A DNA stretch of 47,829 nt, from the NCBI GenBank assembly GCA_002746975.1, contig NVXE01000011.1, positions 24,090 to 71,918 of the forward strand. The letters run 5' to 3'. Both the position numbers and the translations under genes were made by a program. Shown here piece after piece: positions 44,967 through 47,829 of this stretch. The notes below the pieces were generated by a model that had not been told where the DNA came from, made no database searches, and saw nothing but the letters and a program-made list of their open reading frames with translations. Position 1 is the first letter of the stretch. Each line of letters opens with the position of its first letter. The stretch is from Bacteroidota bacterium. GTDB taxonomy: Bacteria > Bacteroidota > Bacteroidia > Flavobacteriales_D > Sanyastnellaceae.

Positions 44967-46073
44967 ATGAAGCTACCTATTGTAAGATTTGCACGAGATA
45001 ACTCAGGATTTGGAAAAGTCTTGCGTGAACGCATTGAAGAATATTTCTCAAAAACAGGAAAGACTAAATCTGGAGGATTCCAAATGTATTTAAAGACCAC
45101 ACTAATGTTGTCGCTTTATTTCGTTCCTTGGGCCCTATTTACATTTGCAGGCGTAGAAGGCACATGGTTTTGGGTGGCTGAAGTAGCAATGGGATTTGGT
45201 TTAGCTGGAATAGGTCTCAATGTTATGCACGATGGTAATCACAATGCATACAGTAAGAAATCGTGGGTTAATAAAATGATGGGACGTACTGTAGACCTTG
45301 TAGGTGGAAATGCGGAAATGTGGATGATTCAGCATAACGTTCTACATCATACTTTTACAAATATCGATGGTCTTGATGAGGATATAGATCCGGCATCAGT
45401 GCTTAGGTTTAACCCTAATAAGCCGCTTTACAAGATTCACAGATTCCAACACATATATGCTTGGTTTTTATATTCATTGATGACTATTTTCTGGATGCTA
45501 CCTAAAGACTGGATGTCTCTAGCACGTTATCACAAAAAAGATTTAATTAAAACTACGGGAAGAACTACTAAGGGACTTCTATTTCACATGGCTTCGACAA
45601 AGGCTGTTTATTTTACTTATTCTCTAGTTCTTCCTTTGATTTTTAGTGGTCTTTCATGGTATGTTGTCGTACTAGGATGGATGGTTATGCATGGAGTTGC
45701 TGGTTTCTTGATGGCTATTATATTCCAACCAGCTCACGTTATGGAGCATAATTCATTCCCACAAGTTGGTGAAGACGGACTTAATTTAGATTCAACTAGG
45801 CTTGAGCATCAGCTTCAATCCTCTGCTAATTTCGGTGTCAATAATAAATTATTGTCTTACTTATGTGGTGGCTTAAACTTTCAAATTGAGCATCACTTAT
45901 TTCCAAACATCTGTCACGTTCACTATAAAGCACTTTCTGAGATAGTAAAGACAACGGCAGAGGAATTTGGATTACCATATAGAGCGGATATGACATTTAA
46001 GGATGCACTTAGGTTGCACACAAAAACGCTTAAGAATTTGGGAAGAGTAGCACCTAGTTCTTCTATAATTTAA
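44967..46073 (+). CDS. Membrane fatty acyl desaturase
   Basis: 368 residues. The three histidine boxes of front-end-type desaturases are intact: HDGNH (88-92), HNVLHH (123-128) and QIEHH (306-310), which bind the di-iron centre. Hydrophobic segments lie at about 42-62, 66-86, 165-180 and 212-250. There is no cytochrome b5 domain, so electrons come from a separate ferredoxin or flavoprotein. QxxHH is typical of the linoleoyl-CoA/delta-5/6 group, but substrate and double-bond position cannot be told from sequence. The likely role is membrane fluidity adjustment, fitting the neighbouring cold-type helicase. Confidence 0.88.
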   Translation: MKLPIVRFARDNSGFGKVLRERIEEYFSKTGKTKSGGFQMYLKTTLMLSLYFVPWALFTFAGVEGTWFWVAEVAMGFGLAGIGLNVMHDGNHNAYSKKSWVNKMMGRTVDLVGGNAEMWMIQHNVLHHTFTNIDGLDEDIDPASVLRFNPNKPLYKIHRFQHIYAWFLYSLMTIFWMLPKDWMSLARYHKKDLIKTTGRTTKGLLFHMASTKAVYFTYSLVLPLIFSGLSWYVVVLGWMVMHGVAGFLMAIIFQPAHVMEHNSFPQVGEDGLNLDSTRLEHQLQSSANFGVNNKLLSYLCGGLNFQIEHHLFPNICHVHYKALSEIVKTTAEEFGLPYRADMTFKDALRLHTKTLKNLGRVAPSSSII

Positions 46074-46103
46074 TGACTTCGTCGGGAATTAAAGAAACTT
46101 TCG

Positions 46104-46111
46104 TACTTTTG
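46104..46111 (+). promoter_or_regulatory. Helicase -7 promoter box
   Basis: TACTTTTG followed by CACC, an exact TAnnTTTG match. Transcription would start near 46117, leaving a leader of about 92-104 nt before the helicase start. Confidence 0.55.
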
Positions 46112-46116
46112 CACCG

Positions 46117-46208
46117 CGTTAGATAAAACGCATGCGTGCTTCAGCCGTTGTCGGCACGCGCCATCAACAGACTCGGTACGTTAATCGCACACGTTTTCGT
46201 GCGAACAT
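46117..46208 (+). ncRNA. Structured 5' leader of the DEAD-box helicase mRNA
   Basis: A GC-richer stretch than its surroundings. It contains a perfect palindrome ACGCATGCGT (46128-46137). It can fold as GCGTG (46134-46138) / CACGC (46155-46159) closing over an inner stem CCG (46145-46147) / CGG (46152-46154), and as a second hairpin CACG-TTTT-CGTG (about 46190-46201). Long structured leaders before RNA helicase and cold-shock genes often act as temperature- or helicase-sensitive switches. That role is inferred here. Confidence 0.45.
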
Positions 46209-46212
46209 ATGA
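46132..46212 (+). CDS. Upstream ORF (26 codons) before the DEAD-box helicase
   Basis: An ATG at 46132 opens a 26-codon frame (starting MRASAVVGTR and ending FRANI) that closes with TGA at 46210-46212. This stop overlaps, as ATGA, an ATG at 46209 that is in frame with the helicase. It carries six arginines. It covers both hairpins of the leader, so its translation would change the leader's folding. It may be a leader peptide or merely an accidental frame in a structured RNA. The peptide sequence is unfamiliar to me. Confidence 0.35.
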   Translation: MRASAVVGTRHQQTRYVNRTRFRANI

Positions 46213-46220
46213 TTTTATCT

Positions 46221-47829
46221 ATGTCTTTTAAAGATCTAGGATTGAGTGAGCCAGTATTAAAGGCCATTCAACCACTTGGCTATGAAAAGCCGACCCCTAT
46301 TCAGGAACAGTCAATCCCCCACGTTTTAGAAGGGCGCGATATTTTAGGAAGTGCCCAAACAGGTACTGGAAAAACTGCTGCCTTTACACTACCTATGATC
46401 CATGTTCTAGGATCACGACCGTCTAACTCTCAAGGAAGGTCAAAGCCCATTCGCGCTTTGATACTTACTCCTACTAGAGAACTAGCTTCTCAAATTGATG
46501 ACAACGTCCGCAACTACAGTGCTAATTCTAATCTGAAGTCAACAGTTGTTTTCGGAGGTATACCTCAAAGAAGACAAGTTGATGCATTACGTCGTGGTAT
46601 AGACATTTTAGTCGCTACCCCTGGAAGGCTTCTAGACCTTTGCAATCAAGGACACATTCGACTTCAAGATGTTGAATTCCTTGTACTTGATGAGGCTGAC
46701 ACAATGCTTGACATGGGATTTATCCATGATATCAAGAAGATTATAAAGCAGTGCCCTAAAGAGAGGCAGACTCTTTTCTTCTCGGCTACTATGCCCGATA
46801 ATATTAAGACCCTCTCGTCAGATATTCTTACTGACCCTGTTAGAGTCCAAATCGCAGCTGTCAGCTCTGCCGCTGAAACTGTAGATCAACAAGCTTACTA
46901 CGTACGTCAATCAGACAAAAAGGATCTACTAGTTCATATCCTTGAATCTGACGATATTTCAAATGCGCTTGTTTTCACTAGAACTAAGTTTGGAGCTGAT
47001 AAAGTTGTAAGACATTTACAACAAAATAACATCGCATCTGAAGCAATTCACGGAAACAAATCTCAACCTGCAAGGGAGAGAGCTCTAAATAAATTTAGAA
47101 AAGGACGTGTTCGTGTTCTCGTAGCAACAGATATTGCATCTCGTGGAATTGACGTTGATGAACTAACACACGTAATAAATTTCGAATTACCTAACCTTGC
47201 CGAAAGCTACGTTCACCGTATTGGAAGAACTGGTCGTGCAGGTCGCGAAGGAACTGCTATTTCATTCTGTAATGAAGGCGAAGAAAGAAATCACTTGAGA
47301 GGCATTCAGAAACTTATAGGTAAAGAAATAAACTTAGTAACTGACCAGCCTTTCAATATGCCGATGGATCCAGTAGGTATGGTTATGCCTAAAGGTGGTG
47401 GTGGTGGTAAGAAGAAGAGTCGTAATCGTGGCGGAAGCGGATATGGTGGAGGTTCTAGAAACTCTAGCCGTTCTTCATATGGGTCATCTGATTCAAGAGG
47501 TGGAAGAGGTGGTGGTTCTGCTAGACGATTTGACCGTGACAGTCGCGGAAGCGGTAACAGAACTGGAGGCTCTAGAGACGGAGGATCTTCTAGAGGTTAC
47601 GGAAGTCAAACTGCAGCAGCAGAATACAGTAGAGGAGATTCTAGTAGAAGTGATTCGAACAGAGGTGATTCGAACAGAGGTGATTCAGGATACAAAGGTT
47701 CTTCTTTTGGGCCTCCAAGAGAACGTTCATCTTCAAACCGTGGCGGCGGAGGATACTCTCGCGACAGCCGAGGTGGAAACGACAATCGTGGTGGTGGCGG
47801 AGGATACTCTCGCGATAGCCGAGGTGGAA
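46221..47829 (+). CDS. DEAD-box RNA helicase, RhlE-like (3' end outside window)
   Basis: 536 codons are visible with no stop, so the gene is cut by the window end. All core motifs are present: Q motif (PTPIQEQS), AQTGTGKT (45-52), PTRELA, GG, TPGR, DEAD (157-160), SAT (188-190), ATDIASRGID and HRIGRTGRAG. From about residue 388 the protein is Gly/Arg/Ser-rich (RGG-like) with repeated SRDSRGG and SNRGD units, a flexible RNA-binding tail. The start is ATG 46221 (MSFKDLGLSEP, as in relatives); ATG 46209 in the same frame would add four residues and overlaps the upstream ORF stop. It probably unwinds RNA in ribosome assembly or at low temperature. Confidence 0.93.
   Translation, partial: MSFKDLGLSEPVLKAIQPLGYEKPTPIQEQSIPHVLEGRDILGSAQTGTGKTAAFTLPMIHVLGSRPSNSQGRSKPIRALILTPTRELASQIDDNVRNYSANSNLKSTVVFGGIPQRRQVDALRRGIDILVATPGRLLDLCNQGHIRLQDVEFLVLDEADTMLDMGFIHDIKKIIKQCPKERQTLFFSATMPDNIKTLSSDILTDPVRVQIAAVSSAAETVDQQAYYVRQSDKKDLLVHILESDDISNALVFTRTKFGADKVVRHLQQNNIASEAIHGNKSQPARERALNKFRKGRVRVLVATDIASRGIDVDELTHVINFELPNLAESYVHRIGRTGRAGREGTAISFCNEGEERNHLRGIQKLIGKEINLVTDQPFNMPMDPVGMVMPKGGGGGKKKSRNRGGSGYGGGSRNSSRSSYGSSDSRGGRGGGSARRFDRDSRGSGNRTGGSRDGGSSRGYGSQTAAAEYSRGDSSRSDSNRGDSNRGDSGYKGSSFGPPRERSSSNRGGGGYSRDSRGGNDNRGGGGGYSRDSRGG
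47652..47686 (+). repeat. 15-bp tandem repeat in the helicase tail
   Basis: GATTCGAACAGAGGT occurs at 47652-47666 and 47667-47681, and a third partial copy follows. It is in frame and encodes repeated D-S-N-R-G units of the RNA-binding tail. Confidence 0.85.
47745..47829 (+). repeat. 34-bp direct repeats at the window end
   Basis: Two 34-bp copies, 47745-47778 and 47796-47829, differ at one base and are 51 bases (17 codons) apart. They encode repeated GGYSRDSRGG-like units. The window ends exactly at the end of the second copy. Confidence 0.85.

Follow-up and report, generated by a model that had tools for sequence, protein, structure and literature searches.

A predicted knotted leader RNA conserved upstream of an RhlE-type DEAD-box helicase gene in one family of Bacteroidota

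What lies in the short gap between the fatty-acid desaturase gene and the RhlE-type DEAD-box helicase gene of this member of the Bacteroidota, and does it act on the helicase? The gap belongs to a 47,829-nt stretch of DNA, here called the window (G000:C10:24090-71918, from a 2.39-Mb genome in 14 contigs), and consists of a promoter-like box followed by a leader of about 100 nt (Table 1). The initial annotation had described an exact TAnnTTTG box and a GC-rich leader with hairpins and a 10-bp palindrome, and all of these are in the sequence; we take the box to be a promoter of the Bacteroidota -7 type, and the palindrome, ACGCATGCGT at 46128-46137, is the junction of the 3' strand of the hairpin P0 with the 5' strand of the stem S1. 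It had also supposed that the leader is structured and probably regulates the helicase. Covariation bears out the structure, and it is well supported by sequence comparison that the leader just before the helicase gene encodes a conserved knotted RNA; regulation is what we infer from it.

Table 1. Features of the desaturase-helicase gap and its flanks, in window positions
Feature	Position	Strand	Basis or remark
Fatty-acid desaturase	44967-46073		upstream neighbour of helicase
TAnnTTTG promoter box, TACTTTTG	46104-46111	+	read from sequence
P0, 5' hairpin GCGUU/AACGC, highly variable sequence	46116-46131	+	predicted hairpin
26-codon ORF, ATG 46132 to TGA 46212	46132-46212	+	unconserved, regarded as incidental
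S1, GCGUGC 46134-46139 with GCACGC 46154-46159, loop 46140-46153	46134-46159	+	covariation
S2 5' strand (CCGUUGUC), within S1 loop	46145-46152	+	covariation
S2 3' strand (GACUCGG), partner of 46145-46152	46170-46176	+	covariation
Linker ACGU	46178-46181	+	possible partner: P3 loop ACGU 46191-46194 (S3) or, with neighbours, S1 5' strand
P3 hairpin UCGCAC/GUGCGA, stem 46185-46190/46199-46204, loop ACGUUUUC	46185-46204	+	covariation
RhlE-type DEAD-box RNA helicase, RG-rich C-terminal tail	46221-47829, beyond window end	+	PF00270, PF00271

The gene downstream of the leader encodes a protein with DEAD and Helicase_C domains. Its top NCBIfam model is RhlE, at 497.5 bits against a cut-off of 743, the gene being cut by the window end, and among the best 80 of 590 confirmed helicase relatives that are named the majority come from Bacteroidota. 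A long, repetitive RG/RGG-rich C-terminal tail takes up 47390-47829 and extends beyond the window. The helicase most likely starts at the ATG at 46221 (MSFKDLGL), where its orthologues begin. In the initial annotation the TGA of the short ORF overlapped an in-frame ATG from which ribosomes could restart on the helicase. This ATG, at 46209, and the overlap are there, but among the genus's 11 leaders just two have it (L003 from G000 and L004 from G008), and it is not the shared start, because the orthologues begin at the position of 46221. Fatty-acid desaturases and DEAD-box helicases are both cold-type genes. Within the window's genus the desaturase lies directly upstream of the helicase; at the loci of genus g18 that carry the leader motif, another protein is the upstream neighbour.

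The leader is predicted to fold into P0 (in most members), then an H-type pseudoknot made of S1 and S2, and then the hairpin P3. The 5' strand of S2 lies inside the S1 loop and its partner lies downstream of S1; because the two helices use different bases, they can form together. About one base separates the S2 and S1 strands, UUYA (once UCCA) precedes S2 in every genus except g18, and the third loop (L3) is 10-11 nt long in g1, 28 nt in g14, 38-41 nt in g7 and g19 and 47-50 nt in g18. Of the 30 sequences, 24 have a predicted P0, several times a weak one, and none of the six g18 sequences does; it has just 3 bp in L102, L104, L113 and L121, forms a weak 4-bp stem in L114 and takes another register in L111. 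The palindrome keeps its 10-bp form in 7 of 23 leaders, all in the window's genus. P3 is missing from L121 (the L012 leader). Its 3' end lies 13-20 nt from the start codon in all 28 leaders measured, which would place it at the upstream edge of the site taken by the 30S subunit, and in the window an AU-rich stretch follows it.

A search for compensatory changes in orthologous leaders was strongly positive in two alignments. The first, A2, was built from 18 leaders, chosen from the 23 collected by that stage so as to avoid near-duplicates; 96.1% of its S1, S2 and P3 cells were paired and 11 of 19 pairs had changes on both sides. No shuffle out of 500 equalled the real alignment in its share of paired cells, its double changes or its score, and slid versions paired in 22-47%; a measure of further pair types was reached by 142 of the 500. 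The second, A3, comprised 30 matches (27 distinct) and was fitted to S1 and P3, not to S2. Here 94.1% of cells were paired, 12 of 19 pairs had double changes, and further pair types were reached by 10 of 500 shuffles; double-change cells numbered 61 against 14.5 by shuffling, a count of cells and not of independent events, since sequences within a genus are related. Judging from the alignment, changes between genera and those within g19 and g14 would be separate events. The helices contribute differently. S1 is paired in 100% of cells, with changes on both sides in two of its six pairs and four pairs invariant, and P3 in 96.2%, with such changes in five of six. S2 has double changes in five of seven pairs and is paired in 92.7% of cells in A2 and 87.2% in A3, the lower figure arising chiefly because g18 pairs S2 in a neighbouring register; read directly, the g18 sequences have long S2 helices (for example, UCCCGAGUUGA with UUCGACUUGGGA), with one mismatch in L117 and L119.

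Folding of the window sequence on its own gave energies only mildly better than shuffled ones (z -1.26 for 46118-46208, with 25 of 200 shuffles as good, and z -2.05 for 46118-46240, with 6 of 200), so that energy alone shows no structure, whereas comparison does. The S2 energy of individual sequences was reached by between 0 and 41 of 200 shuffled loops. In an energy-only pseudoknot scan most leaders with the motif lay near their own shuffles, a different best pair was chosen in 5 of 23, and the motif-less leaders L034, L053 and L064 were equally low (0/40); run on leaders of other genera the scan was uninformative and was set aside, 17 further upstream regions having been used in it alone. 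The case for structure rests on covariation, conservation and position, and on these we regard the S1-S2 structure as very probably real. A further helix, S3, between the linker and the P3 loop is kept as a possibility. It could form with 3-5 bp in all 20 distinct tails that have P3, but between 22 and 568 of 1000 shuffles of the loop letters did as well; in L107, a seemingly compensated case, the linker pairs longer with the loop of L098.

Given this structure, the conspicuous feature of the window, a short ORF running through the stems, can be considered. The initial annotation had proposed that translation of its 26 codons melts the stems and that ribosomes then re-initiate at the helicase. 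The layout is present in the window, and the frame opening at 46132 was followed through 23 leaders, 11 from the genus and 12 from other genera. Within the genus an ATG is found in 10 of 11 leaders (L012 has none), but the frame and its end differ among these relatives: it ends as in the window in L003 and L004, the only 2 of the 23 leaders with the ATGA overlap; it stops after 12 codons in L005, where S2 has lost one base, and after 25 codons and without overlap in L007, L011 and L025; and it continues into the helicase start in L006, L008, L009 and L010. None of the 12 leaders from other genera has the ATG, though S1 and S2 persist in them. Nine, all from g19, have GTG or TTG instead, and in six of these an 11-codon frame sits at the same place, which would favour the switch, while two frames stop after 18 and 26 codons and one runs to the helicase start. 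The letters that are shared are those of the stems, and the arginines of the ORF derive from the conserved stem sequence. As a conserved device this switch is largely refuted by the comparison, and we consider it very improbable.

The suggestion that the leader holds mutually exclusive hairpins fared better in part. The 5' strand of S1 could pair either with GCACGC, giving the pseudoknot, or with YACG after S2, giving a long hairpin, and the leader might then act as a bistable switch. RNAfold favours the long hairpin in the window, and four or five of its five pairs can form in 21 of the 27 distinct sequences (g1, g7, g14 and g19). Nevertheless, the five pairs show no double change at all, 500 of 500 shuffles are as good, the same helix slid by two still pairs in 74.1%, and the six g18 sequences make just three of the five pairs; such pairing can be a by-product of the conserved GCGUG and of CG-rich bases. 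The rival pairing is available in most sequences but finds no support in covariation, whereas S1 and S2, which covary, can form together; we keep a bistable switch as a rival and think it unlikely.

Another possibility is that the leader is a cold sensor, in which the RNA refolds with temperature and, without the help of any protein, makes the start site accessible when it is cold. The gene next upstream encodes a fatty-acid desaturase, and several bacterial DEAD-box helicases are described as cold-induced in the part of the Caulobacter study available to us (PMC5472812). The temperature dependence put forward for this leader found no support in the comparison, however, as pairing of the start region is not conserved: the helix formed by UAGAUAAAA and UUUUAUCUA in the window is not retained in its relatives. 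This makes a cold sensor improbable. Pairing of the start region with the P0 loop was also tried and rejected; it reaches 8-9 bp in L003 and L004, but in the other leaders swapping the partners gives pairings that are just as good.

Sequence identity indicates that the leader is under selection. When the window's leader (L003, from G000) was compared with six relatives of the genus, identity was 76-88% from P0 to S2 and 84-90% over the linker and P3, giving 76-90% from P0 to P3. By contrast, third codon positions in the first 450 bases were 39-48% identical, and the sequence before the promoter 43-48%. The final 16 nt before the ATG varied between 31 and 81%. The promoter box with its flank was 94-100% identical in the same comparison, and 21 of the 30 motif loci have a TAnnTT(T/C)G box somewhere in the 90 nt that precede S1.

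A search of the window's genus matched the helicase in 13 of 14 genomes, G012 having no match at the threshold, and 11 of the 13 have the leader, including G001, whose helicase copy contains an N run. The remaining two, G006 and G007, have the helicase and no leader. In both (L014 and L013, respectively) the helicase ATG lies at the desaturase stop codon and overlaps it (TAATG), a natural lack of the element; there is perhaps read-through from the desaturase here. Across the family, 94 of 114 genomes had a helicase match that reached the threshold. For 60 genomes belonging to other genera the upstream regions were read by eye, three of them ending at contig ends, and the same leader core was seen in g7, g14, g19 and part of g18. 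Model R1 matched 16 of the 114 family genomes and model R2 gave 31 matches in 399 genomes of the order, 30 of them genuine; the other, in G221 (E 0.067), covers in antisense the beginning of a frame that by eye looks EF-Tu-like, and we dismissed it as a chance match. The 30 motif genomes (11 of g1, 1 of g7, 2 of g14, 6 of g18 and 10 of g19) have one copy each at the search thresholds used, and in all 30 it stands before the helicase, in 29 by reading frame and in G090 at a contig end after the start codon. Model R3, run on 345 genomes of the class, gave seven matches. One is G000; the other six fall within long reading frames (five sense, one antisense) and were rejected. Applied also to the best 80 of the 590 confirmed named RhlE loci it gave three weak matches: L197, inside a reading frame (by eye) upstream of the helicase, with S1 pairs broken, was rejected, L165 lies downstream of the helicase match and L194 is antisense within it. 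As far as the models see, the element is confined to 5 of the 21 genera of one family, with the proviso that stricter filters may miss diverged members. In most of the family's genera no motif can be recognised, which together with the leaderless G006 and G007 makes the element dispensable.

Leaders of other kinds were noticed by eye at some of these helicase genes. In the other g18 sequences (L059, L061, L064, L066, L068 and L074) a shared GAGCGAAACUGCUC-like hairpin is followed by UUUCACGAU or similar, and this may be another small structured leader. In g21, L035, L042, L047, L049 and L063 have GACGCA...UGCGUC-like arms before the helicase, most of them with a GCGUG and a CCGA stretch, a type that is possibly related or convergent. 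Also in g21, L062 has tRNA-Lys and tRNA-Leu genes directly upstream of the helicase (185-346, helicase strand), which may be co-transcribed with it; L072 has similar sequence beside a contig end, and no tRNA was called there.

Is the leader an instance of something already described? Small pseudoknot riboswitches include SAM-II, itself an H-type pseudoknot, and preQ1, and a compact pseudoknot with conserved bases resembles their layout, so that a metabolite- or ion-sensing riboswitch built on the pseudoknot has to be considered. The initial annotation had pointed to Rfam. At gathering scores Rfam 15 gave no match in the window, and at permissive E-values five, all below the cut-off and none on leaders; the leader is therefore without any match, to SAM-II kinds (cmscan) as to other families. 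It stands, moreover, before one gene that lacks a metabolic function, and its L3 ranges from 10 to 50 nt. We consider a riboswitch quite improbable. SAM-II and SAM-II long-loops are likewise found in Bacteroidota leaders, the latter being among the Bacteroidetes motifs listed in PMC2864571, in the main text of which the word 'helicase' does not occur.

Closer parallels come from proteins that bind RNA. In the text available of PMC10931766, pseudoknot leaders are described for the ribosomal proteins S15 and S4, the mycobacterial rpsO (S15) ones being autogenous. The rpsO leader of mycobacteria and Escherichia coli is, like the present one, a 5'-UTR pseudoknot of the gene for an RNA-binding protein, and in mycobacteria it likewise lies upstream of the initiation site (same portion of PMC10931766). 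The helicase leader differs in its gene, in having no Rfam match and in its extra P0 and P3 hairpins, and binding is putative here. The S4 (alpha-operon) leader is likewise a complex pseudoknot near a start codon, as outlined in those pages (PMC10931766); it includes the ribosome binding site, whereas the helicase leader ends 13-20 nt before the start. For Caulobacter crescentus, the accessible part of PMC5472812 reports that rhlE has a 186-nt 5' UTR and that RhlE may regulate its own mRNA, again a structured RhlE leader with suggested self-regulation. That UTR differs in its length, in stem-loops predicted from a single sequence, in that no pseudoknot is named in the part seen, and in belonging to another phylum. 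The uORFC-6-1 motif of Bacillales, upstream of hflX (there termed an RNA helicase), is likewise an RNA motif before the gene of a ribosome-related RNA remodeller; by its description in the available excerpt of PMC8632094, it differs in its predicted uORF, its gene and its phylum. The word 'rhlE' does not occur in PMC8632094 or in PMC11109978, and the feedback treated in the portion of PMC5874925 at hand concerns RNase J and not a helicase. Our literature searches found no paper on such a helicase leader.

Sequence comparison shows, then, that wherever the element was found it has this structure, stands at this position and is tied to the helicase gene. We propose, tentatively and at a little under even confidence, that it is a lineage-specific cis-regulatory RNA that controls translation of the helicase, most likely autogenously, the autogenous part resting on analogy. 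Control of translation initiation would be the simplest reading because no terminator-like site occurs in 46050-46300 (window only) and the distance to the start codon is constant. Autogenous control is the most likely form of it because the element was found at a single gene, the product of which is an RNA remodeller; a leader tied in this way would fit the autogenous-control pattern. The sensed factor would be the helicase itself. When plentiful and free, it would bind the knotted RNA and block initiation; when engaged on rRNA or mRNA that has misfolded, as may happen in the cold, it would release the leader and more helicase would be made. For a comparison of the leader with 23S rRNA as a case of mimicry, 23S rRNA was found in none of the six genomes searched.

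The sequence picture would look no different for a ligand, for cold or for ribosomal protein S1, and the rival explanations are not all exclusive of autogenous control. One is an enhancer or stabiliser, which would raise expression instead of sensing anything: the pseudoknot would shield the 5' end, or serve as a standby site or platform for ribosomal protein S1 beside a start that has no Shine-Dalgarno sequence. P3 stands at the edge of the ribosome site with AU-rich sequence after it, ribosomal protein S1 binds pseudoknots and U- or AU-rich sites with high affinity according to the available part of PMC10931766, and in Caulobacter expression was lower from constructs that lacked the rhlE 5' UTR, as stated in the accessible text of PMC5472812. 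The strongly conserved sequence of the S1 stem strands, on the other hand, suggests specific recognition, and the restriction of the element to one gene per genome also speaks against this role, which we regard as rather unlikely. A bolder version of autogenous control, which we think somewhat unlikely, makes the leader a device dedicated to sensing how much DEAD-box helicase activity is free, with the helicase recognising or remodelling the knot in its own mRNA; it may perhaps tip the pseudoknot to and from the long-hairpin fold, with perhaps a second knot at P3.

If the leader were such a sensor, translation of the helicase would report spare unwinding capacity, and the bacterial RhlE would have a defined RNA target and autogenous leaders a new class. 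Apart from this, the leader adds an RNA family that is absent from Rfam 15, and it illustrates that an overlapping ORF, however striking, may arise merely because the sequence of the stems is conserved. As DEAD-box helicases remodel RNA in general, it is difficult to say what their natural targets are; a compact, conserved and knotted RNA fused to a helicase gene provides a testable candidate for such a target, and for a feedback loop acting on the helicase.
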